A DNA stretch of 64,000 nucleotides from contig RSEE01000036.1 in the NCBI GenBank assembly GCA_003971905.1, positions 580,417-644,416 of the forward strand, read 5' to 3'. Below the pieces are notes generated by a model that had not been told where the DNA came from, made no database searches, and was given only the letters and a program-made list of their open reading frames with translations. The position numbers were made by a program, and so were the translations under genes. Positions 34,828-64,000 of the stretch are shown here, piece by piece. How positions within the stretch are numbered: the stretch's first letter is position 1; every line of letters starts with the position of its first letter. Origin of the DNA: Moniliella sp. 'wahieum' (lineage: Eukaryota; Basidiomycota; Moniliellomycetes; Moniliellales; Moniliellaceae).

Positions 34828-35745
34828 CCCGCAACGGTTGCTTCCGGAGATGGGCCTTGTGCGCAAGCCTGTCCCTGGGCGTGGAGGGGACTGTATTCTA
34901 CTTTGGCTGTCTTCTTTGCCCTCTTCCCTCTTCCCTCTTCCCGTGCACTGTACTGCTGCTGTCTTTCCGTCTTTCCTGCTCGCGTCGAGATTTGTCTGGC
35001 CTGTTCCGTTCGGACTTGATCTTCCCCGACACCCTCTCCCGCACCAACGGGAGGGTTTTTTTGGTGGGAGAGAGGGGGACGTGTTTGTAACCTGTATTTC
35101 GTCCGCTTGATTCTATTGATGTGTTCAACTCAACGTTGAACGTTCACCCTCGTTGGTTGCCTGACCCCACCCCTACGTAAGGTCTCTGCCCTCTACCTCA
35201 GTATTAACGCCCAGGAAGAGCTCAAAGAGCAGCAAATGGGAATGGTGGTCGATGGAGATCAAATTGCTAAGGCGGTGGCGAATCCAAGTCATCATGGAGT
35301 CGGAAACGCCACGTCAGAAAACATCACACGCGCATCACACATGATGTCACTTGGAAGTGACCTTGGCCATAAATGACCAGAGGTCAACACTCAGTCAGAC
35401 GTTTCTCCTCCCCCTGTAGCAGTCCTTGCTTGCTCACCAGTGAGGGTCACTCCCCTTGGCACGGTTAGTCGGCCTCGAGCGACTCTGGAAGCGTAGCTGC
35501 ATTGGTCTGCGCCATGCCTCCTACTTCGCGTGGCCTGCGCCATGCCCTCTACTTCCTGTGGCCTGCACGTCTCAACCACATTGCCATGGCTGTATACCAG
35601 TTGCGAACAATTTTGGGTTAGCACTACTACGTGATGAGGGTAGTCGTGGTGCTCAGCGAAAGGGCACGGGGGGGGGGGGGCAGGGATTCGGCCTGGATGG
35701 TGGATGATTGTATTACGAAATGTACAGAAGATGGCAGGGGCTGGA
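34828..35745. other. Convergent intergenic region
   Basis: About 920 bp between the 3' ends of the Bqt4-like gene and TFB4. It contains an AACGTTGAACGTT element near 35133 and a run of 13 G near 35668. A few frames are open but none has a motif. Confidence 0.5.
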
Positions 35746-37148
35746 TCAGTCGACAGGCATGTCCTCCGCCAGACCTGCTTGTACGAACAACTGTCGTTGC
35801 TGCGCCAGTCGGTCAATGGTAGCGGAAGGAAAGACGGAGCGACACGTGTCGCATTGCTTTTTGGGGTGACAAAGATGCTGAGGCAAACCGAGCAAACGTA
35901 GCCCACCGACACGGTCTGGTGATGACAAAAACACGCAGCGCGAAAATCAACAGCGTCCGAGCCGGGGGTGCGAAGCAATGCCGCGCCCGCTCCCGAGCTG
36001 CCACCGCCAGGCTCACCAGGCCGGACGAGAGAGGCGGACGAGGTGGCGGCGCTGCCACCGGGTAATGGTAAAAATGCAGAGAAGAGAACTTGGACCAAGC
36101 CACCCGTGCCCGTAGGCGTAGTGGGATCAACTTTGCGTCGCTTGGGCGCCTTTTCTTCTGCCTCCTTCGACCCCGAAGGAAGAGCAAGCACGCCAAACCT
36201 TCCGCCGAGCGGGCCAGATCAACACGAAGATAGATGCCCCCCGTGAGGTAGGACGCTTGTTGGAGAAAGACCGAGTCGGGCCCATGTAGCTTGAGCACGA
36301 GATGGGCACGCTTTTTTGCGCGGCAAAAACAGTTCATCATGGCCACATATTGTTCGGACGTATCGCCGGTAACGGATAAGATGAGCAACTTGGGTCGGAA
36401 GCCGGCCCGGCCCGAGGCTCCCGACCCATTGGCGCCGGTTCCAGCCGAGGAGGTGGCCGCCGCACCCACTTTCCCCCCGAGGTGGAGGTGGGATCGGCGG
36501 CGCCCAAGCGATTGATCAGGCAGAGCGACTGCGACAGGGCACGGACCAGCCCCGTTTGGCGATGTTGCGACGTAGTGTTGTCAGCGGGCTCGGCAGGCGC
36601 CGATGCGAAGGCCTTGACGGCGTGACGGATGAGACGGCGGACACCAAAAAGACTTGCGAGTCGAGTGTGGTAAAGTCTTGGAAGGTGTTGGCATCCGGAC
36701 GAGCTCGTTCCCGCCGCTCCTGGCCCGACCGGTCCTGGTCCAGGTCCTCGTCGCTGTCCCCGGCCTCATCGGCGCCCTGCCCGCCTGCCCCGGCACCCAA
36801 CCCACCCGCCGTCGAGTAGAGCAAGCGCGCCTCGGACCCCACCGATCCATACACGGCCACCGCATTGTCGCTCTGCATGGCGACATGCGCATTGAGGAAC
36901 ACAAGCACGTCCGCCAGCGCCTGCTCCAACGCATCCGCCGCACTCTCCCCGGAAGCGGTCGCGACGGAAGCGGCGGTGGCTGTGCGCGTGTGCGCGACAG
37001 AGGACCAGCCCAGCAGGCTGCAGTCAATCACAACTACAAGCAGGTCGGGCACATGGCGCCGCAAGCCCGTGCCGGCAGCACTGGGGACCGGCGCAGACGC
37101 AGCCCCGCCACCGCCACCTCCGTCGGCCCGCAGCTCGTTGGTGGACAT
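35746..37148 (-). CDS. TFB4: TFIIH core subunit Tfb4 (p34)
   Basis: Tfb4/p34 pairs with Ssl1/p44 in the TFIIH core, needed for RNA polymerase II initiation and nucleotide excision repair. ATG at 37148 (MSTNELRADG). The von Willebrand A-like domain begins PDLLVVVIDCSLLGW, then VLVFLNAHVAMQSDNAVAVY, then GFRPKLLILSVTGDTSEQYV, NCFCRAKKRAHLVLKL and DSVFLQQASYLTGGIYLRV. The C-terminal zinc motif reads VDFRAACFCHH, GYVCSVCLSIF, KKQCDTCRSVF, ending AEDMPVD at 35746. All are Tfb4 hallmarks. Compared with the family there are Gly/Ala/Ser-rich insertions and a basic insertion containing KAPKRRKVD just after GGIYLR. Frame slips near 36600, 36480, 36190 and 35880. It is head to head with TFA1. Confidence 0.92.
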
Positions 37149-39510: not shown

Positions 39511-41738
39511 ATGTACCACTCGGAATTTGGCCGCCGCCTCCGCTCAAATCGGGCGGAAGCTCCTCGCTCGTCGTCCCTCCTGGCAGTGGTGCCCACTCGA
39601 GACTCTCGTCGCCCCTCCCTCCTCTCTCTGGCAACAACCGGAACGAGCCTCGCCTCTTCCTCCCGCTCTTCCGCCCCCTCTCCCTCGCTGGTGTGTCTGG
39701 GCCTCTGACGCAGTAGACCAGGACCCTCCTTCACTGGGCCCCTCCCATTCCGGCCGCGTCGCTCCGCCGCCAAACGCAGACGCCGCTCCTCCCAACTTTC
39801 CGGCGGTTTACGTCACGCCGCGTCTTCGGAGAGCCTTCATTCGTCCCCGACGAAAAGCATCAGCCGCTCGCTTGGCGCCGGACCCCCCCCATCTCGCCCC
39901 CTCGTACCTCGGCTGCAGGGTTGTCAGCTTCAATCGGATCAGCCCAGACGTCCCACTCGGCTAGGAGACGCAACGTCTTTGTTGATCGCTTCATCCCCAC
40001 TCGCCACGGTGACGACTTGCACGACGCTTACCATCTCTTGGACGACCATCCCGCGTCTCCTACCTACGGAAAAAAGGTCTGCCCCGTTGATACGGATGCG
40101 CAAAAGGGTGTGTACCACTTTCCTTCTGGTTTGGGCTAGATACTGACAGAGCTGCGACAGCGGAAGCCTCCCAAGCTTTCTCTTCGGTTCTCGGGACCGA
40201 GCTCTTTGGAGATACCGCCTCGGGTGCTGCGGCACGAGCTTACGTGCTCAATGGCAGGACCAACAGCACCAGCCTTGACCCTACTGATCGGCCTACCTCC
40301 CCTGGGCCATCAAACTCCAGTGGCGCTCCCTCTGTGCCTGCCCGTTCCCCCCGCACACCCGGGAAACGAAACCTGCTGGTTTATTCCCCTTCGGGCAAAG
40401 CCAGCCGCTCCTTCCAAGCGCCAGGGCTAGGCTCAACACCCACCTCAGGCGAGGGCCTGTTTGGTTTGGGCGACGCGTCCAGAGAAGACACCAGCTTCTC
40501 CATCGACTCACCTCTGCATCAATCCTATTCGACCTCGCCTGTCAAGGTCGAGTCGCAACGCCTGCTTCTCGGTCCCAGGAGGGCACCGAGGGTGCTGCCC
40601 AAGGTGCCCTTCAAAGTTCTCGATGCACCGTATTTGGCTGATGACTTCTACCTCAACCTGGTAGATTGGTCGAGTCAAAATACACTCGGTGTTGGCTTGG
40701 GTTCGTGTGTCTATCTCTGGTCAGCCAAGAACAGCGCCATCACAGCGCTTTGTGATCTCAAGAACCAGCAAGATAAAGTTACCTCACTTTCTTGGACTGG
40801 ACGTGGGTCCCACATTGCCGTTGGGACAGATCGGGGGCAAGTCCAGATTTGGGATACGGACCATTGCCGCCTAGTTCGTACCATGTCCGGCCACACTTCG
40901 CGCGTTGGCGCCTTGGCCTGGAACGAGCACGTTGTCACATCTGGCTCGCGGGATCAGAGTATCATACACTGGGACGTCCGTGTCCCCGATCCCGCCATCC
41001 AAACATTGACCGCCCATCGACAAGAAGTGTGTGGCCTGCGCTGGAACACGGAGCTGAACCAACTCGTCTCGGGCGGCAACGATAATCGGGTGTACGTCTG
41101 GGACGGCATGCGCGCCGACCCGCTGTGGAGGTTCAATGAGCATCGTGCGGCTGTCAAGGCGGTGGCTTGGTCGCCCCATCAGGCTGGCTTGCTCGCTTCC
41201 GGGGGCGGTGGTACAGCGATAAACGACTGTGCTTTTGGAACACGTTGACGGGGGAACGGGTTGGGTCGGTACATACGGGCTCGCAGGTGTGCAACGTGGC
41301 GTGGAGCAAGACGGCCAACGAGGTGGTGTCGACGCATGGCTTTTCCGGCGGGCGGTGCAAAACCAGATCATGGTGTGGAGGTACACCAACCCGCACTCGC
41401 ACAACCCCATTGGCATCCATGCCTCCGCCAGCCAGGCATGGGGCGGGATGAACGCCGCGGCCAGCACCTCCTCGCTCTTGTCCCACTCCTCTCCCTCGGC
41501 CGACGTGCTCGGTGGCGACGACGCAGATGCGGGCGGGATGGTGCTGCAGCCGATGGCTACGTTGACCGGCCACACCATGCGCGTTCTCTATCTCGCCATG
41601 TCCCCGGATGGCGATACGATTGTGACCGGCGCAGGGGACGAGACGCTGCGGTTCTGGGACCTCAACGCGCCGTCGCGCCGAGCAATCGAGAAGCGGGCGC
41701 AGAGCACAACGCTCAACCCTTTTGCGCGCCTGCGGTAG
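39511..41738 (+). CDS. CDH1: APC/C activator Cdh1 (Fizzy-related, WD40)
   Basis: Cdh1 brings substrates to the anaphase-promoting complex in late mitosis and G1. The start at 39511 (MYHSEFGRRLRSN) is tentative because the Ser/Pro-rich N-terminus is frame-damaged. The C-box VDRFIPTR is near 39980-40005. An intron at 40108-40160 (GTGTGT donor, CTGAC branch) is in phase. Next come SPVKVESQRLLLGPRR, the Cdh1-type KVLDAPYLADDFYLNLVDWS, and seven WD repeats (CVYLWSA, VQIWDTD, HTSRVGALAWNEH, HRQEVCGLRWN, VYVWDG, RLCFWNTLTGERVGS, LTGHTMRVLYLAMSPDG). DDFYLNLVDWSS and the HTSRVGALAWN block separate it from Cdc20. About 60 low-complexity residues are inserted between repeats 6 and 7. The protein ends NPFARLR, so the usual Ile-Arg tail is Leu-Arg. 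Slips near 41215 and 41345. Confidence 0.92.
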
Positions 41739-44273: not shown

Positions 44274-44454
44274 TGTCACAGTCGGGGCTAAGGCGAGGGA
44301 GACCAGGATCGGACTAGGCCAAGGGGTGTAGCAATCGTTCGTGGGGAAGAAGCAAGAACAGAGGACATGGTGCGAAGTGGAAGGAACAGGGAAGGAGCGA
44401 GACGCTCGAGACGAAGGAATTGGAAATGGGAGCGAGATCAGCCAAACTATGACA
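44274..44454 (-). repeat. 3' LTR of a Ty3/gypsy chromovirus (181 bp)
   Basis: On the minus strand the pol stop codon is followed at once by a polypurine tract (AAAGGGGGC) and then TGTCATAG, the classic start of an LTR. Reading on, CTGTGACA at 44281-44274 is an imperfect inverted copy (7 of 8), giving TG...CA ends and a 181-bp LTR. No second LTR is present, so the ends are inferred from sequence rules. Confidence 0.65.
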
Positions 44455-44464
44455 TTGCCCCCTT

Positions 44465-45471
44465 TCAGACCTCATCTCCCGGGCGGCGACGAAGGCGAGA
44501 GAGGGCGAGTCGGCGGGCATGGGAGACAGGCTTATCGGGGTAGAGGGCGTGGAAACGAACCACTGGCTCGGCGTCATGAGACATGTCCGCAGCGGGTACC
44601 CACTCCCTCTCGTGGACAGGATAGCCCCGGAAGTGAACAAAGTACTCAATGCGGCCTCCACGACCCTTGCGGCGAGAGTCGAGGACATGCTCGACCTCGT
44701 GATGAACCGCACCATCATCAGCAAACTCGGGGAGAGGAGGCGGGGGCTCGATCAAGCGGGCAGGGACCACGTCACCAGGGGTGTAGGCTCGCAAGCGGGA
44801 CACATGGAACACGTCATGGAGGTGTAGGTAGTCGGGGAGGCGGACCTGGTACGCGGCGCGGCCCACGGCGCGGACAATGGGAAAGGGGCCGAGGTAGCGA
44901 TAGTCCAGGCCGTCAGAAGGCCTGGCTGGACACATACCCGTCCCGACGGACCAAAACAGGCTGGCCAGCAGTGAAGGAAGCCGCCTCGGTGCGCTGCTGA
45001 TCGGCATAATGCTTGTAGCGTTCTTGGGCCGCGGCGAGCGTGCGGCGGGCCACCGCCTGGGCCGAACGCAAATCCTCCAGATATGACGCAGCATCGGGCA
45101 CGGGCGAAGTGGAGGGCTCCAACTCCCCCGGGGGAGTAACCATAGGTGAGGACAAAGGGGGACTGGTGGGTGCTCGAGTGGGAGGACGAGTTGTAGGCGA
45201 ATTCGGCCGTGGGGAGGAGATCGAACCAGTTGGACTGCTGCTCGTCGAGGTAGCAGCGGAGGTACTGTTCGAGGATCTGGTTGAGTCGCTCAGTCTGGCC
45301 GTCCGTCTGGGGGTGGTACGCGGTGCTGAGGCTCGACTTGATGCCCAAGTCGGCACACAAGGCTTGCCAGAAGTGGCTTGTGAAGGTCGGTCCCCGATCA
45401 CTCACCAGATCCCGGGGAACGCCATGGTAGCGAAAGACCTGGTGTACAAACTGGCGCGTGTTACGGGCCAT
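44465..45471 (-). pseudogene. Integrase-chromodomain fragment of chromovirus pol
   Basis: Starts inside the integrase core at ARNTRQFVHQVFRYHG; the second catalytic Asp is in LVSDRGPTF and the Glu in HPQTDGQTERLNQ, while the first Asp is lost with the truncation. A slip near 45125 leads to RRTLAAAQERYKHYADQQR, another near 44930 to DYRYLGPFPIV and LHDVFHVSRLRAY. The chromodomain reads HEVEHVLDSRRKGRGG, EYFVHFRGYPVHEREWVPA, with the aromatic residues expected for methyl-lysine binding, and the stop at 44465 follows RPGDEV. It cannot be active. Chromodomains of this family direct insertion to heterochromatin. Confidence 0.85.
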
Positions 45472-45637
45472 GTCGGATCCGACCAGATCTGACCTTCAAG
45501 CCGAGGCCCGTCTGCTCTATCTGATCAAAGAGCTCGCTCCCAAGTCTTTTTCCAAGTCCACCATGCGGCTGGCGCAAATGCCAGCCGACGTCCAAGTCTA
45601 CGTACTCAGCGACAATAGTCGCTTCCGCCTCAGTTGA
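45470..45637 (+). other. 55-codon open frame at the element junction (weak)
   Basis: ATG at 45470 opens MSDPTRSDLQAEARLLYLIK and continues through KELAPKSFSKSTMRLAQM to a TGA at 45637. It reads like real protein (helical, balanced composition) and begins exactly where the integrase homology ends, on the other strand. The opposite strand is also open here, so direction is uncertain. It could be the start of a damaged gag or host exon. Confidence 0.25.
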
Positions 45638-46220
45638 TTGAGGACCCCAGTTTCGTCGCTCCCAGCTTTCCGTTGCTCCCCGTTTTCCCTTGCGACCTCG
45701 CGACGCTAGTCGCCCCGTGCTTGTTGATCCTCTTCGCCTCCTGCCCACTTCTCGCCAATCGATTCAGTACAGGCAACTCCTCCCGCTCTTAGTCGCCTTT
45801 CTACTCCCGGCTTAGATCGCAAGCCCTCGTCCTCAGTCCTCAGTACTCCTAGTTCCCCCAGCCCGCGTGAGCCTTCCTCGTGCCACGCTCGGTCCAGCCC
45901 AGTTAAGCCGCGTGTGATCTGGTTCTTCGCCACGCCGCTCCCTCAGTCCAACCCCAGTTCAGCAGCGTTGGTCCTCCGCTGCCTTCCACCTTCCCCGAAT
46001 CACGAGGCTTCAGACACGCTACTGCCGCCCAAGCCGGTGTTAAGCAGCCTTGCCACACTTGCAGCGCCTCTGCTATACGCCGAGAGGCCTCTCCTTGTCC
46101 CTAGCTCCGCAGCGGACACACCAATCAGCTCAAGCGCGTAACTACCGTGAGTCGTCCTTCCGTTTAATAAGGGATTGTACCCCAATACTTGGGTGAGCCT
46201 CCTAGCGGGGCCCGCCCGTG
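45638..46220. other. Spacer between retroelement remnant and satellite
   Basis: C- and T-rich non-coding sequence with short echoes such as cctcagtcctcagtactcc. No satellite homology was seen until about 46221. Confidence 0.45.
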
Positions 46221-49200
46221 ACTTACAAGGGCATGCCCCCCCCCATTCAGGGTTGAGACAACTTTTGACTGGCAGACCGGGGGAGTGAGTTTTTTTGAAT
46301 AGCCCCAGGCCGTAGCTTTCCAACGATCCCACTCTCACTCCGATCTGACGCCTGGTCTTGCGTCGCGTGGGCACCCTAGCGTAGCCCTACCGATAGTACC
46401 CAGGGTGGATGTGACCATGCCAACTTGGGGTCTCATCCGTTCCAGCCCCCACTTCCCACAGCAGTAGTCCCAGTCCAGGAGATGACCTGGGGCTATTCAG
46501 ATCCAGGATCACCTTGTAGAATCTAGTACCTGTCATAGGAGGGACGTGGGTGACAGGCATCACCGGTCACCGTACATCGTTGAGTGAACATCACCCTTCA
46601 ACCCCGACGGTGACTGAATCGAAGTACCTTGGTGTGTAGAGCTGGGTCAGGAGAAGCGATAGCACCGGTCCGGATCTCGATCCGACCAATACTGACCGAG
46701 TACCATCCGTGGAAAGTCTGACCGGTGACATCACCCTCTACTCGACCTGCAGGGCTCAAACCTCGACCTATTCCAGATCTGTTTCGTGCAGCCTCTAGTC
46801 CTGACCGAGGTCTAGAGGCTCTGGTAGTTTCATTCCGGTCGGACCAATATTGACGGACCGAGGTGGAGTTGAACCTGGGGTACGACCTGATACTTACAAG
46901 GGCATGCCCACCCCACCCATTCAGGGTTGAGACAACTTTTGACTGGCAGACCGGGGGAGTGAGTTTTTTGAATAGCCCCAGGCCGTAGCTTTCCAACGAT
47001 CCCACTCTCACTCCGATCTGACGCCTGGTCTTGCGTCGCGTGGCACCCTAGCGTAGCCCTACCGATAGTACCCAGGGTGGATGTGACCATGCCAACTTGG
47101 GGTCTCATCCGTTCCAGCCCCCACTTCCCACAGCAGTAGTCCAGTCCAGGAGATGACCTGGGGCTATTCAGATCCAGGATCACCTTGTAGAATCTAGTAC
47201 CTGTCATAGGAGGGACGTGGGTGACAGGCATCACCGGTCACCGTACATCGTTGAGTGAACATCACCCTTCAACCCCGACCCCTGGACTGAATCGAAGTAC
47301 CTTGGTGTGTAGAGCTGGGTCAGGAGAAGCGATAGCACCGGTCCGGATCTCGATCCGACCAATACTGACCGAGTACCATCCGTGGAAAGTCTGACCGGTG
47401 ACATCACCCTCTACTCGACCTGCAGGGCTCAAACCTCGACCTATTCCAGATCTGTTTCGTGCAGCCTCTAGTCCTGACCGAGGTCTAGAGGCTCTGGTAG
47501 TTTCATTCCGGTCGGACCAATATTGACGGACCGAGGTGGAGTTGAACCTGGGGTACGACTGATACTTACAAGGGCATGCCCACCCCACCCATTCAGGGTT
47601 GAGACAACTTTTGACTGGCAGACCGGGGGAGTGAGTTTTTTTGAATAGCCCCAGGCCGTAGCTTTCCAACGATCCCACTCTCACTCTCACGATCTGACGC
47701 CTGGTCTTGCGTCGCGTGGGCACCCTAGCGTAGCCCTACCGATAGTACCCAGGGTGGATGTGACCATGCCAACTTGGGTCTCATCCGTTCCAGCCCCCAC
47801 TTCCCACAGCAGTAGTCCCAGTCCAGGAGATGACCTGGGGCTATTCAGATCCAGGATCACCTTGTAGAATCTAGTACCTGTCATAGGAGGGACGTGGGTG
47901 ACAGGCATCACCGGTCACCGTACATCGTTGAGTGAACATCACCCTTCAACCCCGACCCCTGGACTGAATCGAAGTACCTTGGTGTGTAGAGCTGGGTCAG
48001 GAGAAGCGATAGCACCGGTCCGGATCTCGATCCGACCAATACTGACCGAGTACCATCGTGGAAAGTCTGACCGGTGACATCACCCTCTACTCGACCTGCA
48101 GGGCTCAAACCTCGACCTATTCCAGATCTGTTTCGTGCAGCCTCTAGTCCTGACCGAGGTCTAGAGGCTCTGGTAGTTTCATTCCGGTCGGACCAATATT
48201 GACGGACCGAGGGGAGTTGAACCTGGGGTACGACCTTACTTACAGGGCATGCCCACCCACCCATTCAGGGTTGAGACAACTTTGACTGGCAGACCGGGGG
48301 AGTGAGTTTTTTGAATAGCCCCAGGCCGTAGCTTTCCAACGATCCCACTCTCACTCCGATCTGACGCCTGTCTTGCGTCGCGTGGGCACCCTAGCGTAGC
48401 CCTACCGATAGTACCCAGGGTGGATGTGACCATGCCAACTTGGGGTCTCATCCGTTCCAGCCCCCACTTCCCACAGCAGTAGTCCCAGTCCAGGAGATGA
48501 CCTGGGGCTATTCAATCCAGGATCACCTTGTAGAATCTAGTACCTGTCATAGGAGGGACGTGGGTGACAGGCATCACCGGTCACCGTACATCGTTGAGTG
48601 AACATCACCCTTCAACCCCGACCCCTGGACTGAATCGAAGTACCTTGGTGTGTAGAGCTGGGTCAGGAGAAGCGATGCACCGGTCCGGATCTCGATCCGA
48701 CCAATACTGACCGAGTACCATCCGTGGAAAGTCTGACCGGTGACATCACCCTCTACTCGACCTGCAGGGCTCAACCTCGACCTATTCCAGATCTGTTTCG
48801 TGCAGCCTCTAGTCCTGACCGAGGTCTAGAGGCTCTGGTAGTTTCATTCCGGTCGGACCAATATTGACGGACCGAGGTGGAGTTGAACCTGGGTACGACC
48901 TGATACTTACAAGGGCATGCCCACCCCACCCATTCAGGGTTGAGACAACTTTTGACTGGCAGACCGGGGGAGTGAGTTTTTTTGAATAGCCCCAGGCCGT
49001 AGCTTTCCAACGATCCCACTCTCACTCCGATCTGACGCCTGGTCTTGCGTCGCGTGGGCACCCTAGCGTAGCCCTACCGATAGTACCCAGGGTGGATGTG
49101 ACCATGCCAACTTGGGGTCTCATCCGTTCCAGCCCCCACTTCCCACAGCAGTAGTCCCAGTCCAGGAGATGACCTGGGGCTATTCAGATCCAGGATCACC

Positions 49201-52200
49201 TTGTAGAATCTAGTACCTGTCATAGGAGGGACGTGGGTGACAGGCATCACCGGTCACCGTACATCGTTGAGTGAACATCACCCTTCAACCCCGACCCCTG
49301 GACTGAATCGAAGTACCTTGTGTGTAGAGCTGGGTCAGGAGAAGCGATAGCACCGGTCCGGATCTCGATCCGACCAATACTGACCGAGTACCATCCGTGG
49401 AAAGTCTGACCGGTGACATCACCCTCTACTCGACCTGCAGGGCTCAAACCTCGACCTATTCCAGATCTGTTTCGTGCAGCCTCTAGTCCTGACCGAGGTC
49501 TAGAGGCTCTGGTAGTTTCATTCCGGTCGGACCAATATTGACGGACCGAGGTGGAGTTGAACCTGGGGTACGACCTGATACTTACAAGGGCATGCCCACC
49601 CCACCCATTCAGGGTTGAGACAACTTTTGACTGGCAGACCGGGGGAGTGAGTTTTTTGAATAGCCCCAGGCCGTAGCTTTCCAACGATCCCACTCTCACT
49701 CCGATCTGACGCCTGGTCTTGCGTCGCGTGGGCACCCTAGCGTAGCCCTACCGATAGTACCCAGGGTGGATGTGACCATGCCAACTTGGGGTCTCATCCG
49801 TTCCAGCCCCCACTTCCCACAGCAGTAGTCCCAGTCCAGGAGATGACCTGGGCTATTCAGATCCAGGATCACCTTGTAGAATCTAGTACCTGTCATAGGA
49901 GGGACGTGGGTGACAGGCATCACCGGTCACCGTACATCGTTGAGTGAACATCACCCTTCAACCCCGACCCCTGGACTGAATCGAAGTACCTTGGTGTGTA
50001 GAGCTGGGTCAGGAGAAGCGATAGCACCGGTCCGGATCTCGATCCGACCAATACTGACCGAGTACCATCCGTGGAAAGTCTGACGGTGACATCACTCTCG
50101 ACCTGCAGGGCTCAAACCCGACCTATTCCAGATCTGTTTCGTGAGCCTCTAGTCCTGACCGAGGTATGAGGCTCTGGGTAGTTTCATTACGGTCGGACCA
50201 ATATTGACGGACCGAGGTGGAGTTGAACTGGGGTACGACCTGATACTTACAAGGGATGCCCACCCCACCCATTCAGGGTTGAGACAACTTTTGACTGGCA
50301 GACCGGGGGAGTGAGTTTTTTTGAATAGCCCCAGGCCGTAGCTTTCCAACGATCCCACTCTCACTCCGATCTGACGCCTGGTCTTGCGTCGCGTGGGCAC
50401 CCTAGCGTAGCCCTACCGATAGTACCCAGGGTGGATGTGACCATGCCAACTTGGGGTCTCATCCGTTCCAGCCCCCACTTCCCACAGCAGTTAGTCCCAG
50501 TCCAGGAGATGACCTGGGGCTATTCAGATCCAGGATCACCTTGTAGAATCTAGTACCTGTCATAGGAGGGACGTGGGTGACAGGCATCACCGGTCACCGT
50601 ACATCGTTGAGTGAACATCACCCTTCAAACCCCGACCCCTGGACTGAATCGAAGTACCTTGATGTGTAGAGCTGGGTCAGGAGAAGCGATAGCACCGGTC
50701 CGGATCTCGATCCGACCAATACTGACCGAGTACCATCCGTGGAAAGTCTGACCGGTGACATCACCCTCTACTCGACCTGCAGGGCTCAAACCTCGACCTA
50801 TTCCAGATCTGTTTCGTGCAGCCTCTAGTCCTGACCGAGGTCTAGAGGCTCTGGTAGTTCATTCCGGTCGGACCAATATTGACGGACCGAGGTGGAGTTG
50901 AACCTGGGGTACGACCTGATACTTACAAGGGCATGCCCACCCCACCCATTCAGGGTTGAGACAACTTTTGACTGGCAGACGGGGGAGTGAGTTTTTTTGA
51001 ATAGCCCCAGGCCGTAGCTTTCCAACGATCCCACTCTCACTCCGATCTGACGCCTGGTCTTGCGTCGCGTGGGCACCCTAGCGTAGCCCTACCGATAGTA
51101 CCCAGGGTGGATGTGACCATGCCAACTTGGGGTCTCATCCGTTCCAGCCCCCACTTCCCACAGCAGTAGTCCCAGTCCAGGAGATGACCTGGGGCTATTC
51201 AGATCCAGGATCACCTTGTAGAATCTAGTACCTGTCATAGGAGGGACGTGGGTGACAGGCATCACCGGTCACCGTACATCGTTGAGTGAACATCACCCTT
51301 CAACCCCGACCCCTGGACTGAATCGAAGTACCTTGGTGTGTAGAGCTGGGTCAGGAGAAGCGATAGCACCGGTCCGGATCTCGATCCGACCAATACTGAC
51401 CGAGTACCATCCGTGGAAAGTCTGACCGGTGACATCCCTCTACTCGACCTGCAGGGCTCAAACCTCGACCTATTCCAGATCTGTTTCGTGCAGCCTCTAG
51501 TCCTGACCGAGGTCTAGAGGCTCTGGTAGTTTCATTCCGGTCGGACCAATATTGACGGACCGAGGTGGAGTTGAACCTGGGGTACGACCTGATACAAGGG
51601 CATGCCCACCCCACCCATTCAGGGTTGAGACAACTTTTGACTGGCAGACCGGGGGAGTGAGTTTTTTGAATAGCCCCAGGCCGTAGCTTTCCAACGATCC
51701 CACTCTCACTCCGATCTGACGCCTGGTCTTGCGTCGCGTGGGCACCCTAGCGTAGCCCTACCGATAGTACCCAGGGTGGATGTGACCATGCCAACTTGGG
51801 GTCTCATCCGTTCCAGCCCCCACTTCCCACAGCAGTAGTCCCAGTCCAGGAGATGACCTGGGGCTATTCAGATCCAGGATCACCTTGTAGAATCTAGTAC
51901 CTGTCATAGGAGGGACGTGGGTGACAGGCATCACCGGTCACCGTACATCGTTGAGTGAACATCACCCTTCAACCCCGACCCTGGACTGATCGAAAAGTAC
52001 CTTGGTGTGTAGAGCTGGGTCAGGAGAAGCGATAGCACCGGTCCGGATCTCGATCCGACCAATACTGACCGAGTACCATCCGTGGAAAGTCTGACCGGTG
52101 ACATCACCCTCTACTCGACCTGCAGGGCTCAAACCTCGACCTATTCCAGATCTGTTTCGTGCAGCCTCTAGTCCTGACCGAGGTCTAGAGGCTCTGGTAG

Positions 52201-55200
52201 TTTCATTCCGGTCGGACCAATATTGACGGACCGAGGTGGAGTTGAACCTGGGGTACGACCTGATACTTACAAGGGCATGCCCACCCCACCCATTCAGGGT
52301 TGAGACAACTTTTGACTGGCAGACCGGGGGAGTGAGTTTTTTTGAATAGCCCCAGGCCGTAGCTTTCCAACGATCCCACTCTCACTCCGATCTGACGCCT
52401 GGTCTTGCGTCGCGTGGGCACCCTAGCGTAGCCCTACCGATAGTACCCAGGGTGGATGTGACCATGCCAACTTGGGGTCTCATCCGTTCCAGCCCCCACT
52501 TCCCACAGCAGTAGTCCCAGTCCAGGAGATGACCTGGGGCTATTCAGATCCAGGATCACCTTGTAGAATCTAGTACCTGTCATAGGAGGGACGTGGGTGA
52601 CAGGCATCACCGGTCACCGTACATCGTTGAGTGAACATCACCCTTCAACCCCGACCCCTGGACTGAATCGAAGTACCTTGGTGTGTAGAGCTGGGTCAGG
52701 AGAAGCGATAGCACCGGTCCGGATCTCGATCCGACCAATACTGACCGAGTACCATCCGTGGAAAGTCTGACCGGTGACATCACCCTCTACTCGACCTGCA
52801 GGGCTCAAACCTCGACCTATTCCAGATCTGTTTCGTGCAGCCTCTAGTCCTGACCGAGGTCTAGAGGCTCTGGTAGTTTCATTCCGGTCGGACCAATATT
52901 GACGGACCGAGGTGGAGTTGAACCTGGGGTACGACCTGATACTTACAAGGGCATGCCCACCCCACCCATTCAGGGTTGAGACAACTTTTGACTGGCAGAC
53001 CGGGGGAGTGAGTTTTTTGAATAGCCCCAGGCCGTAGCTTTCCAACGATCCCACTCTCACTCCGATCTGACGCCTGGTCTGTCGCGTGGGCACCCTAGCG
53101 TAGCCCTACCGATAGTACCCAGGGTGGATGTGACCATGCCAACTTGGGGTCTCATCCGTTCCAGCCCCCACTTCCCACAGCAGTAGTCCCAGTCCAGGAG
53201 ATGACCTGGGGCTATTCAGATCCAGGATCACCTTGTAGAATCTAGTACCTGTCATAGGAGGGACGGGGTGACAGGCATCACCGGTCACCGTACATCGTTG
53301 AGTGAACATCACCCTTCAACCCCGACCCCTGGACTGAATCGAAGTACCTTGGTGTGTAGAGCTGGGTCAGGAGAAGCGATAGCACCGGTCCGGATCTCGA
53401 TCCGACCAATACTGACCGAGTACCATCCGTGGAAAGTCTGACCGGTGACATCACCCTCTACTCGACCTGCAGGGCTCAAACCTCGACCTATTCCAGATCT
53501 GTTTCGTGCAGCCTCTAGTCCTGACCGAGGTCTAGAGGCTCTGGTAGTTTCATTCCGGTCGGACCAATATTGACGGACCGAGGTGGAGTTGAACCTGGGG
53601 TACGACCTGATACTTACAAGGGCATGCCCACCCCACCCATTCAGGGTTGAGACAAACTTTTGACTGGCAGACCGGGGGAGTGAGTTTTTTTGAATAGCCC
53701 CAGGCCGTAGCTTTCCAACGATCCCACTCTCACTCCGATCTGACGCCTGGTCTTGCGTCGCGTGGGCACCCTAGCGTAGCCTACGATAGTACCCAGGGTG
53801 GATGTGACCATGCCAACTTGGGGTCTCATCCGTTCCAGCCCCCACTTCCCACAGCAGTAGTCCCAGTCCAGGAGATGACCTGGGGCTATTCAGATCCAGG
53901 ATCACCTTGTAGAATCTAGTACCTGTCATAGGAGGGACGTGGGTGACAGGCATCACCGGTCACCGTACATCGTTGAGTGAACATCACCCTTCAACCCCGA
54001 CCCCTGGACTGAATCGAAGTACTTGGTGTGTAGAGCTGGGTCAGGAGAAGCGATAGCACCGGTCCGGATCTCGATCCGACCAATACTGACCGAGTACCAT
54101 CCGTGGAAAGTCTGACCGGTGACATCACCCTCTACTCGACCTGCAGGGCTCAAACCTCGACCTATTCCAGATCTGTTTCGTGCAGCCTCTAGTCCTGACC
54201 GAGGTCTAGAGGCTCTGGTAGTTTCATTCCGGTCGGACCAATATTGACGGACCGAGGTGGAGTTGAACCTGGGGTACGACCTGATACTTACAAGGGCATG
54301 CCCACCCCACCCATTCAGGGTTGAGACAACTTTTGACTGGCAGACCGGGGGAGTGAGTTTTTTTGAATAGCCCCAGGCCGTAGCTTTCCAACGATCCCAC
54401 TCTCACTCCGATCTGACGCCTGGTCTTGCGTCGCGTGGGCACCCTAGCGTAGCCTACCGATAGTACCCAGGGTGGATGTGACCATGCCAACTTGGGGTCT
54501 CATCCGTTCCAGCCCCCACTTCCCACAGCAGTCCCAGTCCAGGAGATGACCTGGGGCTATTCAGATCCAGGATCACCTTGTAGAATCTAGTACCTGTCAT
54601 AGGAGGGACGTGGGTGACAGGCATCACCGGTCACCGTACATCGTTGAGTGAACATCACCCTTCAACCCCGACCCCTGGACTGAATCGAAGTACCTTGGTG
54701 TGTAGAGCTGGGTCAGGAGAAGCGATAGCACCGGTCCGGATCTCGATCCGACCAATACTGACCGAGTACCATCCGTGGAAAGTCTGACCGGTGACATCAC
54801 CCTCTACTCGACCTGCAGGGCTCAAACCTCGACCTATTCCAGATCTGTTTCGTGCAGCCTCTAGTCTGACCGAGGTCTAGAGGCTCTGGTAGTTCATTCC
54901 GGTCGGACCAATATTGACGGACCGAGGTGGAGTGAACCTGGGGTACGACCTGATACTTACAAGGGCATGCCCACCCCACCCATTCAGGGTTGAACAACTT
55001 TGACTGGCAGACCGGGGGAGTGAGTTTTTTGAATAGCCCCAGGCCGTAGCTTTCAACGATCCCATCTCACTCCGATCTGACGCCTGGCTTGCGTCGCGTG
55101 GGCACCCTAGCGTAGCCCTAGAGAGTAGCCCAGGGTGGATGTGACCATGCCAAGTGGGGTCTCATCCGTTCCAGCCCCCACTTCCCACAGCAGTAGTCCC

Positions 55201-58200
55201 AGTCCAGGAGATGACCTGGGGCTATTCAGATCCAGGATCACCTTGTAGAATCTAGTACCTGTCATAGGAGGGACGTGGGTGACAGGCATCACCGGTCACC
55301 GTACATCGTTGAGTGAACATCACCCTTCAACCCCGACCCCTGGACTGAATCGAAGTACCTTGGTGTGTAGAGCTGGGTCAGGAGAAGCGATAGCACCGGT
55401 CCGGATCTCGATCCGACCAATACTGACCGAGTACCATCCGTGGAAAGTCTGACCGGTGACATCACCCTCTACTCGACCTGCAGGGCTCAAACCTCGACCT
55501 ATTCCAGATCTGTTTCGTGCAGCCTCTAGTCCTGACCGAGGTCTAGAGGCTCTGGTAGTTTCATTCCGGTCGGACCAATATTGACGGACCGAGGTGGAGT
55601 TGAACCTGGGGTACGACCTGATACTTACAAGGGCATGCCCACCCCACCCATTCAGGGTTGAGACAACTTTTGACTGGCAGACCGGGGGAGTGAGTTTTTT
55701 TGAATAGCCCCAGGCCGTAGCTTTCCAACGATCCCACTCTCACTCCGATCTGACGCCTGGTCTTGCGTCGCGTGGGCACCCTAGCGTAGCCCTACCGATA
55801 GTACCCAGGGTGGATGTGACCATGCCAACTTGGGGTCTCATCCGTTCCAGCCCCCACTTCCCACAGCAGTAGTCCCAGTCCAGGAGATGACCTGGGGCTA
55901 TTCAGATCCAGGATCACCTTGTAGAATCTAGTACCTGTCATAGGAGGGACGTGGGTGACAGGCATCACCGGTCACCGTACATCGTTGAGTGAACATCACC
56001 CTTCAACCCCGACCCCTGGACTGAATCGAAGTACCTTGGTGTGTAGAGCTGGGTCAGGAGCGATAGCACCGGTCCGGATCTCGATCCGACCAATACTGAC
56101 CGAGTACCATCCGTGGAAAGTCTGACCGGTGACATCACCCTCTACTCGACCTGCAGGGCTCAAACCTCGACCTATTCCAGATCTGTTTCGTGCAGCCTCT
56201 AGTCCTGACCGAGGTCTAGAGGCTCTGGTAGTTTCATTCCGGTCGGACCAATATTGACGGACCGAGGTGGAGTTGAACCTGGGGTACGACCTGATACTTA
56301 CAAGGGCATGCCCACCCCACCCATTCAGGGTTGAGACAACTTTTGACTGGCAGACCGGGGGAGTGAGTTTTTTTGAATAGCCCCAGGCCGTAGCTTTCCA
56401 ACGATCCCACTCTCACTCCGATCTGACGCCTGGTCTTGCGTCGCGTGGGCACCCTAGCGTAGCCCTACCGATAGTACCCAGGGTGGATGTGACCATGCCA
56501 ACTTGGGGTCTCATCCGTTCCAGCCCCCACTTCCCACAGCAGTAGTCCCAGTCCAGGAGATGACCTGGGGCTATTCAGATCCAGGATCACCTTGTAGAAT
56601 CTAGTACCTGTCATAGGAGGGACGTGGGTGACAGGCATCACCGGTCACCGTACATCGTTGAGTGAACATCACCCTTCAACCCCGACCCCTGGACTGAATC
56701 GAAGTACCTTGGTGTGTAGAGCTGGGTCAGGAGAAGCGATAGCACCGGTCCGGATCTCGATCCGACCAATACTGACCGAGTACCATCCGTGGAAAGTCTG
56801 ACCGGTGACATCACCCTCTACTCGACCTGCAGGGCTCAAACCTCGACCTATTCCAGATCTGTTTCGTGCAGCCTCTAGTCCTGACCGAGGTCTAGAGGCT
56901 CTGGTAGTTTCATTCCGGTCGGACCAATATTGACGGACCGAGGTGGAGTTGAACCTGGGGTACGACCTGATACTTACAAGGGCATGCCCACCCCACCCAT
57001 TCAGGGTTGAGACAACTTTTGACTGGCAGACCGGGGGAGTGAGTTTTTTTGAATAGCCCCAGGCCGTAGCTTTCCAACGATCCCACTCTCACTCCGATCT
57101 GACGCCTGGTCTTGCGTCGCGTGGGCACCCTAGCGTAGCCCTACCGATAGTACCCAGGGTGGATGTGACCATGCCAACTTGGGGTCTCATCCGTTCCAGC
57201 CCCCACTTCCCACAGCAGTAGTCCCAGTCCAGGAGATGACCTGGGGCTATTCAGATCCAGGATCACCTTGTAGAATCTAGTACCTGTCATAGGAGGGACG
57301 TGGGTGACAGGCATCACCGGTCACCGTACATCGTTGAGTGAACATCACCCTTCAACCCCGACCCCTGGACTGAATCGAAGTACCTTGGTGTGTAGAGCTG
57401 GGTCAGGAGAAGCGATAGCACCGGTCCGGATCTCGATCCGACCAATACTGACCGAGTACCATCCGTGGAAAGTCTGACCGGTGACATCACCCTCTACTCG
57501 ACCTGCAGGGCTCAAACCTCGACCTATTCCAGATCTGTTTCGTGCAGCCTCTAGTCCTGACCGAGGTCTAGAGGCTCTGGTAGTTTCATTCCGGTCGGAC
57601 CAATATTGACGGACCGAGGTGGAGTTGAACCTGGGGTACGACCTGATACTTACAAGGGCATGCCCACCCCACCCATTCAGGGTTGAGACAACTTTTGACT
57701 GGCAGACCGGGGGAGTGAGTTTTTTTGAATAGCCCCAGGCCGTAGCTTTCCAACGATCCCACTCTCACTCCGATCTGACGCCTGGTCTTGCGTCGCGTGG
57801 GCACCCTAGCGTAGCCCTACCGATAGTACCCAGGGTGGATGTGACCATGCCAACTTGGGGTCTCATCCGTTCCAGCCCCCACTTCCCACAGCAGTAGTCC
57901 CAGTCCAGGAGATGACCTGGGGCTATTCAGATCCAGGATCACCTTGTAGAATCTAGTACCTGTCATAGGAGGGACGTGGGTGACAGGCATCACCGGTCAC
58001 CGTACATCGTTGAGTGAACATCACCCTTCAACCCCGACCCCTGGACTGAATCGAAGTACCTTGGTGTGTAGAGCTGGGTCAGGAGAAGCGATAGCACCGG
58101 TCCGGATCTCGATCCGACCAATACTGACCGAGTACCATCCGTGGAAAGTCTGACCGGTGACATCACCCTCTACTCGACCTGCAGGGCTCAAACCTCGACC

Positions 58201-61200
58201 TATTCCAGATCTGTTTCGTGCAGCCTCTAGTCCTGACCGAGGTCTAGAGGCTCTGGTAGTTTCATTCCGGTCGGACCAATATTGACGGACCGAGGTGGAG
58301 TTGAACCTGGGGTACGACCTGATACTTACAAGGGCATGCCCACCCCACCCATTCAGGGTTGAGACAACTTTTGACTGGCAGACCGGGGGAGTGAGTTTTT
58401 TTGAATAGCCCCAGGCCGTAGCTTTCCAACGATCCCACTCTCACTCCGATCTGACGCCTGGTCTTGCGTCGCGTGGGCACCCTAGCGTAGCCCTACCGAT
58501 AGTACCCAGGGTGGATGTGACCATGCCAACTTGGGGTCTCATCCGTTCCAGCCCCCACTTCCCACAGCAGTAGTCCCAGTCCAGGAGATGACCTGGGGCT
58601 ATTCAGATCCAGGATCACCTTGTAGAATCTAGTACCTGTCATAGGAGGGACGTGGGTGACAGGCATCACCGGTCACCGTACATCGTTGAGTGAACATCAC
58701 CCTTCAACCCCGACCCCTGGACTGAATCGAAGTACCTTGGTGTGTAGAGCTGGGTCAGGAGAAGCGATAGCACCGGTCCGGATCTCGATCCGACCAATAC
58801 TGACCGAGTACCATCCGTGGAAAGTCTGACCGGTGACATCACCCTCTACTCGACCTGCAGGGCTCAAACCTCGACCTATTCCAGATCTGTTTCGTGCAGC
58901 CTCTAGTCCTGACCGAGGTCTAGAGGCTCTGGTAGTTTCATTCCGGTCGGACCAATATTGACGGACCGAGGTGGAGTTGAACCTGGGGTACGACCTGATA
59001 CTTACAAGGGCATGCCCACCCCACCCATTCAGGGTTGAGACAACTTTTGACTGGCAGACCGGGGGAGTGAGTTTTTTTGAATAGCCCCAGGCCGTAGCTT
59101 TCCAACGATCCCACTCTCACTCCGATCTGACGCCTGGTCTTGCGTCGCGTGGGCACCCTAGCGTAGCCCTACCGATAGTACCCAGGGTGGATGTGACCAT
59201 GCCAACTTGGGGTCTCATCCGTTCCAGCCCCCACTTCCCACAGCAGTAGTCCCAGTCCAGGAGATGACCTGGGGCTATTCAGATCCAGGATCACCTTGTA
59301 GAATCTAGTACCTGTCATAGGAGGGACGTGGGTGACAGGCATCACCGGTCACCGTACATCGTTGAGTGAACATCACCCTTCAACCCCGACCCCTGGACTG
59401 AATCGAAGTACCTTGGTGTGTAGAGCTGGGTCAGGAGAAGCGATAGCACCGGTCCGGATCTCGATCCGACCAATACTGACCGAGTACCATCCGTGGAAAG
59501 TCTGACCGGTGACATCACCCTCTCGACCTGCAGGGCTCAAACCTCGACCTATTCCAGATCTGTTTCGTGCAGCCTCTAGTCCTGACCGAGGTCTAGAGGC
59601 TCTGGTAGTTTCATTCCGGTCGGACCAATATTGACGGACCGAGGTGGAGTTGAACCTGGGGTACGACCTGATACTTACAAGGGCATGCCCACCCCACCCA
59701 TTCAGGGTTGAGACAACTTTTGACTGGCAGACCGGGGGAGTGAGTTTTTTTGAATAGCCCCAGGCCGTAGCTTTCCAACGATCCCACTCTCACTCCGATC
59801 TGACGCCTGGTCTTGCGTCGCGTGGGCACCCTAGCGTAGCCCTACCGATAGTACCCAGGGTGGATGTGACCATGCCAACTTGGGGTCTCATCCGTTCCAG
59901 CCCCCACTTCCCACAGCAGTAGTCCCAGTCCAAGATGACCTGGGGCTATTCAGATCCAGGATCACCTTGTAGAATCTAGTACCTGTCATAGGAGGGACGT
60001 GGGTGACAGGCATCACCGGTCACCGTACATCGTTGAGTGAACATCACCCTTCAACCCCGACCCCTGGACTGAATCGAAGTACCTTGGTGTGTAGAGCTGG
60101 GTCAGGAGAAGCGATAGCACCGGTCCGGATCTCGATCCGACCAATACTGACCGAGTACCATCCGTGGAAAGTCTGACCGGTGACATCACCCTCTACTCGA
60201 CCTGCAGGGCTCAAACCTCGACCTATTCCAGATCTGTTTCGTGCAGCCTCTAGTCCTGACCGAGGTCTAGAGGCTCTGGTAGTTTCATTCCGGTCGGACC
60301 AATATTGACGGACCGAGGTGGAGTTGAACCTGGGGTACGACCTGATACTTACAAGGGCATGCCCACCCCACCCATTCAGGGTTGAGACAACTTTTGACTG
60401 GCAGACCGGGGGAGTGAGTTTTTTTGAATAGCCCCAGGCCGTAGCTTTCCAACGATCCCACTCTCACTCCGATCTGACGCCTGGTCTTGCGTCGCGTGGG
60501 CACCCTAGCGTAGCCCTACCGATAGTACCCAGGGTGGATGTGACCATGCCAACTTGGGGTCTCATCCGTTCCAGCCCCCACTTCCCACAGCAGTAGTCCC
60601 AGTCCAGGAGATGACCTGGGGCTATTCAGATCCAGGATCACCTTGTAGAATCTAGTACCTGTCATAGGAGGGACGTGGGTGACAGGCATCACCGGTCACC
60701 GTACATCGTTGAGTGAACATCACCCTTCAACCCCGACCCCTGGACTGAATCGAAGTACCTTGGTGTGTGAGCTGGGTCAGGAGAAGCGATAGCACCGGTC
60801 CGGATCTCGATCCGACCAATACTGACCGAGTACCATCCGTGGAAAGTCTGACCGGTGACATCACCCTCTACTCGACCTGCAGGGCTCAAACCTCGACCTA
60901 TTCCAGATCTGTTTCGTGCAGCCTCTAGTCCTGACCGAGGTCTAGAGGCTCTGGTAGTTTCATTCCGGTCGGACCAATATTGACGGACCGAGGTGGAGTT
61001 GAACCTGGGGTACGACCTGATACTTACAAGGGCATGCCCACCCCACCCATTCAGGGTTGAGACAACTTTTGACTGGCAGACCGGGGGAGTGAGTTTTTTT
61101 GAATAGCCCCAGGCCGTAGCTTTCCAACGATCCCACTCTCACTCCGATCTGACGCCTGGTCTTGCGTCGCGTGGGCACCCTAGCGTAGCCCTACCGATAG

Positions 61201-64000
61201 TACCCAGGTGGATGTGACCATGCCAACTTGGGTCTCATCCGTTCCAGCCCCCACTTCCCACAGCAGTAGTCCCAGTCCAGGAGATGACCTGGGGCTATTC
61301 AGATCCAGGATCACCTTGTAGAATCTAGTACCTGTCATAGGAGGGACGTGGGTGACAGGCATCACCGGTCACCGTACATCGTTGAGTGAACATCACCCTT
61401 CCCCCGACCCCTGGACTGAATCGAAGTACCTTGGTGTGTAGAGCTGGGTCAGGAGAAGCGATAGCACCGGTCCGGATCTCGATCCGACCAATACTGACCG
61501 AGTACCATCCGTGGAAAGTCTGACCGGTGACATCACCTCACTCTACGACCTGCAGGCTCAAACCTCGACCTATTCCAGATCTGTTTCGTGCAGCCTCTAG
61601 TCCTGACCGAGGTCTAGAGGCTCTGGTAGTTTCATTCCGGTCGGACCAATATTGACGGACCGAGGTGGAGTTGAACCTGGGGTACGACCTGATACTTACA
61701 AGGGCATGCCCACCCCACCCATTCAGGGTTGAGACAACTTTGACTGGCAGACCGGGGGAGTGAGTTTTTTTGAATAGCCCCAGGCCGTAGCTTTCCAACG
61801 ATCCCACTCTCACTCCGATCTGACGCCTGGTCTTGCGTCGCGTGGGCACCCTAGCGTAGCCCTACCGATAGTACCCAGGGTGGATGTGACCATGCCAACT
61901 TGGGGTCTCATCCGTTCCAGCCCCCACTTCCCACAGCAGTAGTCCCAGTCCAGGAGATGACCTGGGGCTATTCAGATCCAGGATCACCTTGTAGAATCTA
62001 GTACCTGTCATAGGAGGGACGTGGGTGACAGGCATCACCGGTCACCGTACATCGTTGAGTGAACATCACCCTTCAACCCACCCCGACCCCTGGACTGAAT
62101 CGAAGTACCTTGGTGTGTAGAGCTGGGTCAGGAGAAGCGATAGCACCGGTCCGGATCTCGATCCGACCAATACTGACCGATACCATCCGTGGAAAGTCTG
62201 ACCGGTGACATCACCCTCTACTCGACCTGCAGGGCTCAAACCTCGACCTATTCCAGATCTGTTTCGTGCAGCCTCTAGTCCTGACCGAGGTCTAGAGGCT
62301 CTGGTAGTTTCATTCCGGTCGGACCAATATTGACGGACCGAGGTGGAGTTGAACCTGGGGTACGACCTGATACTTACAAGGGCATGCCCACCCCACCCAT
62401 TCAGGGTTGAGACAACTTTTGACTGGCAGACCGGGGGAGTGAGTTTTTTTGAATAGCCCCAGGCCGTAGCTTTCCAACGATCCCACTCTCACTCCGATCT
62501 GACGCCTGGTCTTGCGTCGCGTGGGCACCCTAGCGTAGCCCTACCGATAGTACCCAGGGTGGATGTGACCATGCCAACTTGGGGTCTCATCCGTTCCAGC
62601 CCCCACTTCCCACAGCAGTAGTCCCAGTCCAGGAGATGACCTGGGGCTATTCAGATCCAGGATCACCTTGTAGAATCTAGTACCTGTCATAGGAGGGACG
62701 TGGGTGACAGGCATCACCGGTCACCGTACATCGTTGAGTGAACATCACCCTTCAACCCCGACCCCTGGACTGAATCGAAGTACCTTGGTGTGTAGAGCTG
62801 GGTCAGGAGAAGCGATAGCACCGGTCCGGATCTCGATCCGACCAATACTGACCGAGTACCATCCGTGGAAAGTCTGACCGGTGACATCACCCTCTACTCG
62901 ACCTGCAGGGCTCAAACCTCGACCTATTCCAGATCTGTTTCGTGCAGCCTCTAGTCCTGACCGAGGTCTAGAGGCTCTGGTAGTTTCATTCCGGTCGGAC
63001 CAATATTGACGGACCGAGGTGGAGTTGAACCTGGGGTACGACCTGATACTTACAAGGGCATGCCCACCCCACCCATTCAGGGTTGAGACAACTTTTGACT
63101 GGCAGACCGGGGGAGTGAGTTTTTTTGAATAGCCCCAGGCCGTAGCTTTCCAACGATCCCACTCTCACTCCGATCTGACGCCTGGTCTTGCGTCGCGTGG
63201 GCACCCTAGCGTAGCCCTACCGATAGTAACCCAGGGTGGATGTGACCATGCCAACTTGGGGTCTCATCCGTTCCAGCCCCCACTTCCCACAGCATAGTCC
63301 CAGTCCAGGAGATGACCTGGGGCTATTCAGATCCAGGATCACCTTGTAGAATCTAGTACCTGTCATAGGAGGGACGTGGGTGACAGGCATCACCGGTCAC
63401 CGTACATCGTTGAGTGAACATCACACCTTCAACCACACCCCCCGACCCCTGGACTGAATCGAAGTACCTTTGTGTAGAGCTGGGTCAGGAGAAGCGATAG
63501 CCACCGGCCGGATCTCGATCCGACAATACTGACCGAGTACCATCCGTGGAAAGTCTGACCGGTGACATCACCCTCTACTCGACCTGCAGGGCTCAAACCT
63601 CGACCTATTCCAGATCTGTTTCGTTGCAGCCTCTAGTCCTGACCGAGGTCTAGAGGCTCTGGTAGTTTCATTCCGGTCGGACCATAATTGACGGACCGAG
63701 GTGGAGTTGAACCTGGGGTACGACCTGATACAAGGGCATGCCACCCCACCCATTCAGGGTTGAGACAACTTTTGACTGGCAGACCGGGGGAGTGAGTTTT
63801 TTGAAGCCCCCGGCCGTAGCTTTCCAACGATCCCACTCTCACTCCGATCTGACGCCTGGTCTTGCGTCGCGTGGCACCCTAGCGTAGCCCTACCGATAGT
63901 ACCCAGGGTGGATGTGACCATGCAACTTGGGGTCTCATCCGTTCCAGCCCCCACTTCCCACAGCAGTAGTCCCAGTCCAGGAGATGACCTGGGGCTATTC
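46221..64000. repeat. Tandem satellite, unit ~676 bp, 26 complete copies plus partial
   Basis: The anchor ACTTACAAGGGCATGCC (or its position) recurs at about 46221, 46892, 47564, 48237, 48904, 49579, 50247, 50929, 51592, 52266, 52939, 53611, 54286, 54955, 55624, 56297, 56973, 57648, 58325, 59001, 59674, 60347, 61022, 61695, 62373, 63049 and 63727. Clean neighbours are exactly 676 bp apart. The copies are nearly identical; differences are mainly one- to few-base indels, many in short homopolymers. The array begins abruptly at 46221 in mid-unit and continues beyond the right edge. The unit has no known gene, rRNA or tRNA that I can recognise. It contains an internal diverged duplication around CCAATACTGAC / CCAATATTGAC about 158 bp apart, and several hairpins. 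Confidence 0.95.
56195..56223. repeat. Perfect 8-bp inverted repeat in each satellite unit (example)
   Basis: GCCTCTAG, a 13-base spacer, then CTAGAGGC. It recurs in nearly every unit. Other dyads in the unit are CGGATC-TC-GATCCG and GGTGAC...GTCACC. Confidence 0.8.

Follow-up and report, generated by a model that had tools for sequence, protein, structure and literature searches.

HeT-A elements of Drosophila are arranged head to tail, have a fixed inner end and are able to attach to broken ends. In yeast, the X/Y' system consists of a short core, found at many ends, and of a larger tandem element; in Chlamydomonas, the Sultan repeats are subtelomeric satellites. We know of no report, for X/Y' or Sultan, of unrelated flanks meeting one fixed base: both are likened to the present sequences by description only. 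The stretch analyzed here, "the window", is 64,000 nucleotides long (Moniliella sp. 'wahieum', C36:580,417-644,416), and ends in an array of a 676-bp satellite unit, belonging to a family well supported as subtelomeric, whose copies share one fixed inner boundary on mostly unrelated flanks. Unlike the HeT-A system, this genome has TTAGGG repeats and matches to the TERT RNA-binding domain (C1:727603-727920; C25:114883-115191, the latter with one stop inside), and the unit is short.

Fungal systems are described in the available sections of two reports. In Magnaporthe oryzae, the subtelomeric tandem repeat (STR; about 0.9 kb) forms a tandem array at TEL4, between unique DNA and the telomere, with 35.5 copies in one read and with length changes put down to unequal exchange (PMC7367193). 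The same sections describe MoTeRs at chromosome ends, with their 5' ends towards the telomere and with truncated copies, MoTeR1 lying one TTAGGG from ribosomal DNA (rDNA); they also describe telomeres formed de novo at truncated rDNA, in 19 of 24 cases on seeds of 1–4 nt (PMC7367193). For FoTeRs, asymmetric telomeric junctions are described in the available text (PMC12857005).

The window array, like the STR, is a tandem array of long units; unlike the present family, the STR is not described, in those sections, as having a common start base on dozens of unrelated flanks (PMC7367193). MoTeRs and FoTeRs share with the family the location at chromosome ends, but MoTeR1 and FoTeRs are presented, in the same texts, with a reverse transcriptase, while the unit has 676 bp and no recognised coding part. 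By analogy, the family resembles the sum of the STR, rDNA healing and MoTeR/FoTeR features, without a reverse transcriptase in the unit. Literature searches, made by words and not by sequence, found no paper on this repeat in the portions of text returned. Reported below are 34 distinct chromosome-end junctions, resolved at the sequence level and sharing one fixed start, beside 20 plain telomere additions of similar base preference; they make the rebuilding of subtelomeres after breakage directly testable, either as DNA capture or as RNA templating.

Arrays, unit types and genomic position

The window array is composed of 26 complete head-to-tail units, with a consensus of 676 bp, followed by a partial one of 273 bp (Table 1). 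The count is that of the array as assembled, where the contig stops within it: base 64,000 is the final base of C36 (644,416 bp). A preliminary description of the window had reported at least 26 units with a 676-bp period, a figure borne out by the count; the array exists as described, but its start had been placed at 46,221, while unit 1 opens at 46,223, with TTACAAGGG. A false anchor, u1_45357, is excluded from this count. The consensus is matched exactly by 6 of the 26 units, and four successive ones, from 56,298 to 59,001, measure exactly 676 bp each. Deviations amount to 104 deleted bases, 33 inserted bases and 6 substitutions. No substitution is common to two units, whether in these 26 taken with the 42 of contig C215, or in the 21 B-type units described below. 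Since the units differ by scattered one-base insertions and deletions, like one sequence with read errors, the array looks either very young or strongly homogenised. Tandem Repeats Finder, with 500 as the longest period listed, did not report it.

Contig C215 (30,608 bp) consists of array throughout: its 42 counted full units include 2 exact ones and carry three single substitutions in total, and its consensus shows no substitutions relative to that of C36. Three kinds of unit are found in the assembly. A-type units are those of C36 and C215, with fragments in C166 and C98 at 97-98%. B-type units, of which 21 are full, lie in C133, C135, C86 and C167, and are on average 99.5-99.9% alike, within and between contigs. 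B'-type units, one each in C7 and C88, are 99.7% alike and about 96% similar to B. A and B differ at 74 of the 676 bases. The high homogeneity inside arrays is that expected of a subtelomeric satellite. The first 141 bp of the unit, indicated as the core, are also found with a terminal cassette at other contig ends: this core is nearest to B (3 differences), with 8 differences from B' and 17 from A.

The many one-base deletions point to an unpolished long-read consensus, and the contig breaks inside an array whose identical units an assembler would be unable to count. That the assembler created the length of the array, or even its tandem order, is nevertheless very improbable, as arrays of the family, of types as different as A and B, occur on several contigs with differing flanks, and single units are followed by core and cassette at C7 and C88.

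A unit found only once had been named in advance as an outcome contrary to the preliminary description, and this outcome did not occur. When a 33-bp pattern from the unit start was run, with up to 3 mismatches, on the 69.5-Mb assembly (223 contigs), 103 matches were obtained, 100 of which are listed; the reversed pattern, used as a control, gave 0. When a whole unit served as query on the same assembly, nearly all matches lay either close to the start of a contig, on the minus strand, or close to its end, on the plus strand. The core, or part of it, was found at 34 further examined places, nearly all of them contig ends, pointing outwards. Terminal TTAGGG repeats are reached, in our reading, at 16 of the 35 core-bearing places, window included, two of them with fewer than 2 repeats; these end counts are lower bounds, as only the best search candidates were scored. 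By our own count, a 16-base TTAGGG pattern occurs at roughly 38 contig ends. TTAGGG tracts off the very contig end were also seen, at C75:199297, C19:775281, C87:142025 and C86:1344, and the whole assembly contains the control pattern, the telomere repeat reversed (a GGGATT microsatellite), more often than the telomere repeat itself.

Proceeding outwards, the order is: chromosome sequence, core, a T/G-rich degenerate repeat with GGGTTAGGG, a segment starting with GTAACTTTTGAACGGGG, a minisatellite of about 40 bp and the TTAGGG repeats. In C7 and C88 a full unit lies ahead of the core, and in C7 TTAGGG sits between the two. In C133 a truncated core is followed by a core with cassette and by a B array, joined at GGGTTACAAGG; in C175 telomere repeats directly follow a unit that is broken at about 570. 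The A-type unit is linked to subtelomeres by the start of C166, where positions 1-252 of the unit are followed by an LTR-type (long terminal repeat) element, the cassette and the 40-bp minisatellite (about 50 sites), up to the contig end. The element in C166 has identical direct repeats of 158 bp, and its frames make it a candidate copia-like one. The motif AACTTTTGA is present both in the core and in the telomere-adjacent segment of the cassette, and may be a shared binding site.

Position, outward orientation and telomere linkage provide good support for a subtelomeric, not centromeric, family: tandem copies lie next to the telomeres of several chromosomes, the window array's own telomere not being assembled. 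Of the settings proposed beforehand the subtelomeric one is thus retained and the centromeric one abandoned: a chromosome-internal position, typical of centromeric satellites, was found for a single core, at C88:69,710. There, core, cassette and minisatellite (C88:69710-69847) lie deep in the contig, perhaps as a former chromosome end or a misjoin.

The idea of a centromeric satellite beside a centromere-type chromovirus draws on the length and homogeneity of the array and on a chromodomain element within 1 kb of it. The element is real: a chromo domain (PF00385, E=7.4e-8), a Tf2-type SH3 domain and an integrase core (PF00665) were found in the remnant, whose edge, first given as about 750 bp from the array, is 766 bp off. 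The gap, however, is filled by a dispersed LTR-like repeat, so labelled by us because of its ends, and the 1.2-kb chromovirus stretch has at least 22 near-full copies at 96-99% identity, besides weaker ones, a lower bound since 40 of 1510 candidates were scored. The coordinates of these copies show no confinement to contig ends. Because of the dispersed copies and of the second dispersed repeat between remnant and array, the nearby chromovirus looks like an incidental dispersed copy; in these data there is no sign that it targeted the satellite. With the family at contig ends linked to TTAGGG, and with a unit that starts at a junction of the chromosome-end type, a centromeric nature is scarcely credible.

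Junctions at the inner boundary

At all of the 35 places, window included, the proximal copy opens with TTACAAGGG or a one-base variant. C102 and C191 read TTACAGGG; in C81 a degenerate copy, TTACAATGG, was the one taken, and the main core also starts with TTACAAGGG. The junction list was anchored on the TTACAAGGG start; the unit-long searches, which were not anchored, found no proximal fragment with another start. Flanks are mostly unrelated between places, and some are rRNA genes. The outer ends of the copies, in contrast to the inner one, vary: 35, 83, 141, 170, 252, 570 and 676 bp.

Statistics were computed on 34 junctions: the end of C89 was dropped, having the same junction as the start of C83, and both C215 and the inner copy at C88:69,710, where CACTAC directly precedes TTACAAGGG, are outside this set. 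The base before TTA is G in 18 cases, C in 12, T in 3 and A in 1. A or T thus precede TTA at 4 of 34 junctions (P about 1e-4), the flank composition being A.21, C.30, G.27, T.21. Flanks end in GGG at 14 of 34 (P about 2e-15), and in TTAGGG(G) at 5 of 34.

Twenty telomeres, added straight onto sequence without core or cassette, were taken from the 29 telomere-bearing stretches examined (C8 and C92 among the 29); left out were C19, whose tract is not at the end, and C3, C45, C48, the start of C75, C82, C121, C181 and C198, which carry the cassette. Here the base before TTA is G in 12 cases, C in 7, T in 1 and A in none, with A or T in 1 of 20 (P about 2e-4); a strict reading of C111 (CTTTAGG) changes the figures to G12 C6 T2 A0, with A or T in 2 of 20 (P about 0.002). 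Since G before TTA may itself be a telomerase product, only the excess of C and the scarcity of A and T are informative. From the similarity of the two spectra, the attachment of the core and the healing of telomeres would seem to begin in one way.

Few flanks resemble each other. C83 and C89 both lie within the 18S rRNA gene, with an identical junction. C167 and C210 are 98.8% alike over about 258 bp and are cut 25 bp apart, with TTAGGG before the core in both; the end of C88 and C95 share a short, weaker match. In C175 the unit is attached, by position, in the 28S region, and plain telomeres are found in the second internal transcribed spacer (ITS2; C35) and in the 28S region (C59; 36-bp match), the 18S-ITS-28S sequences having been located by pattern. 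Copies of the 18S-ITS junction occur on nine contigs (C6, C21, C39, C41, C83, C89, C103, C137 and C195), on eight of which, C6 being apart, they are within about 16 kb of the contig end; at some contig ends the rDNA is interrupted, and a core or a telomere caps it.

The window array begins directly after the GTGAC of the dispersed LTR-like repeat. Three of the four copies of this repeat that were fetched (C60, C49, C92) diverge right after GTGACA or ATGACA, while the match in C82 stops earlier: the window break is therefore placed at, or one base short of, the repeat end.

Proposed origin of the family

In the explanation that we consider probable, the family is a telomere-associated subtelomeric satellite, seeded on broken, telomerase-healed ends and then amplified by recombination. 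Judging from its sequence, the unit is an element of 676 bp in which no coding part is recognised, having TTACAAGGG as its fixed inner end and its other end towards the telomere. A chromosome would first break: breakage is evident from the ends that lie in rDNA and from the two homologous flanks, which stop at different points. Healing by telomerase would follow, with TTA or a small number of TTAGGG repeats left at the broken end, a step supported by the residual seeds, the similar junction-base spectrum and the TERT-domain matches. The short healed end would then gain the element, or the core with the terminal cassette, starting at TTA: the boundary is observed directly, while for its acquisition we infer capture by recombination from another end. 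On a few ends the unit would grow into an array, through unequal exchange or through copying of the break-induced or rolling-circle type, and its copies would be kept identical, as the absence of shared substitutions suggests. Arrays would finally spread between ends, B-type units being the same on four contigs. The window array would sit on a break at the end of the LTR-like repeat, or one base before it.

A break, healing by telomerase and acquisition at the healed TTA appear as the simplest reading of the junctions. Since the counted units are full length and share no substitution, array growth seems best explained by DNA recombination. Acquisition as DNA is favoured by the residual TTAGGG seeds, by the near-identical B units on four contigs and by the lack of any autonomous partner among the sequences found. 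If only recombination operates, the family is a clear case of a long-unit satellite that starts at healed breaks and then expands.

Several observations weigh against this explanation. A full TTAGGG is missing directly before the core at 29 of the 34 junctions, although it should be a more frequent remnant if plain recombination had taken place within telomere tracts. The informative part of the junction bases is restricted, G being possibly telomerase-made. At four places the copy is not strictly terminal: in C98 it lies about 5 kb in, in C166 7.5 kb and in C151 about 8 kb, while C88:69,710 is deep in its contig. Many telomeric ends show no core in the stretch fetched. No telomere is present beyond the window array or C215, and the subtelomeric place of the former rests on the family, the contig end and the capping-type junction.

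A different origin, possible but unlikely, is attachment templated by RNA, with the unit as a non-autonomous telomeric retroposon: an inward transcript ending in ...CCCUUGUAA-3' would be reverse-transcribed onto the chromosome end, with TTA as primer, by telomerase or another reverse transcriptase, so that, as for HeT-A or MoTeR, the inner end would be fixed and the outer ones truncated. The family does combine a fixed 3' end towards the centromere with variable 5' truncation, as telomeric non-LTR retrotransposons do, although terminal erosion would yield the same truncation pattern. Mostly unrelated flanks, the usual lack of a full telomere seed, and a short filler, TTTAC, ahead of TTACAAGGG at the 18S junction also fit this origin. 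What such retrotransposons further possess, an encoded reverse transcriptase or an autonomous partner with the same tail, was not found: none of the 100 places listed, out of 103 with the 33-bp start, is another carrier of that start. PF14529, one family of LINE (long interspersed nuclear element) endonucleases, gave no match, other endonuclease families not having been searched. Array units, full length as counted and without shared variants, are better accounted for by DNA amplification.

The distribution of the A/B substitutions bears on the same alternative. In successive 50-bp intervals along the unit they number 0, 11, 16, 11, 7, 8, 5, 5, 2, 4, 1, 2, 2 and 0. None of the 74 falls within the first 53 bp (P about 0.0016 if uniform; P about 3e-5 when conditioned on the 20 that lie in the 141-bp core), a pattern that a recognised RNA tail would show, and the consensus of these 53 bp is the same in A, B and the cassette core. 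B', however, deviates within them, at position 36, and the unit end is conserved too: conservation at both ends is compatible with a terminal sequence that is recognised, or with conversion acting preferentially around the junction between units. The core, moreover, folds no better than its shuffles (z between -0.54 and 0.26).

In a more specific form, which we hold to be improbable, broken ends would be capped via RNA: a TTA (or GGGTTA) made by telomerase would prime the copying of a short antisense subtelomeric RNA ending in CCCUUGUAA. RNA copying would then provide the end with a ready-made subtelomere, consisting of core, T/G-rich repeat and cassette, or with an expandable 676-bp unit, as a small non-coding, HeT-A-like end-capping system alongside telomerase. 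Were the RNA route true, a short non-coding repeat would do part of the job of telomere-specific retrotransposons.

Rejected candidates and features of the window

Other natures of the unit were considered and set aside. A coding unit is not supported: 676 is not divisible by three, the longest stop-to-stop frames, of 139 (A) and 136 (B) amino acids, are unlike each other, and five array frames of 134-162 amino acids have no Pfam match at E<=0.1. A structured RNA was rejected on the folding test reported above and on the absence of Rfam matches (E<=0.1; window 40,000-49,000). Among the 71 RVT_1 matches in the assembly two, in C71 and C2, were looked at closely as autonomous partners: the former is a chromovirus, while the latter is a weak match, in a stretch starting in 18S rDNA. 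Elsewhere in the assembly, a chitin-synthase domain gave 21 matches, in keeping with a fungal genome, and IFT57 was not found, its search control giving signals in three archaea below the cut-off.

Coordinates of the satellite array, of the flanking repeats and of three reading frames are collected in Table 1.

Table 1. Features of the window (positions refer to the 64,000-nucleotide stretch)
Feature	Position	Strand	Remarks
Complete A-type 676-bp satellite units (26)	46223..63727	+	head to tail
Partial last unit, 273 bp	63728..64000	+	contig stops here
First 53 bp of unit 1	46223..46275	+	approximate: small C-tract differences in unit 1
141-bp core, common with the terminal cassette at other contig ends	46223..46363	+	end approximate, insertions and deletions in unit 1
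Dispersed LTR-like repeat	45458..46222		limits approximate; ends TGTTAC...GTGACA
Ty3/gypsy chromovirus remnant	44274..45456	-	integrase core, Tf2-type SH3, chromodomain; placed by match to dispersed copies
CDC20/Fizzy-like frame	40244..41245	+	
Tfb4-like frame	35391..36191	-	
NTE-type patatin phospholipase frame	18888..21434	+

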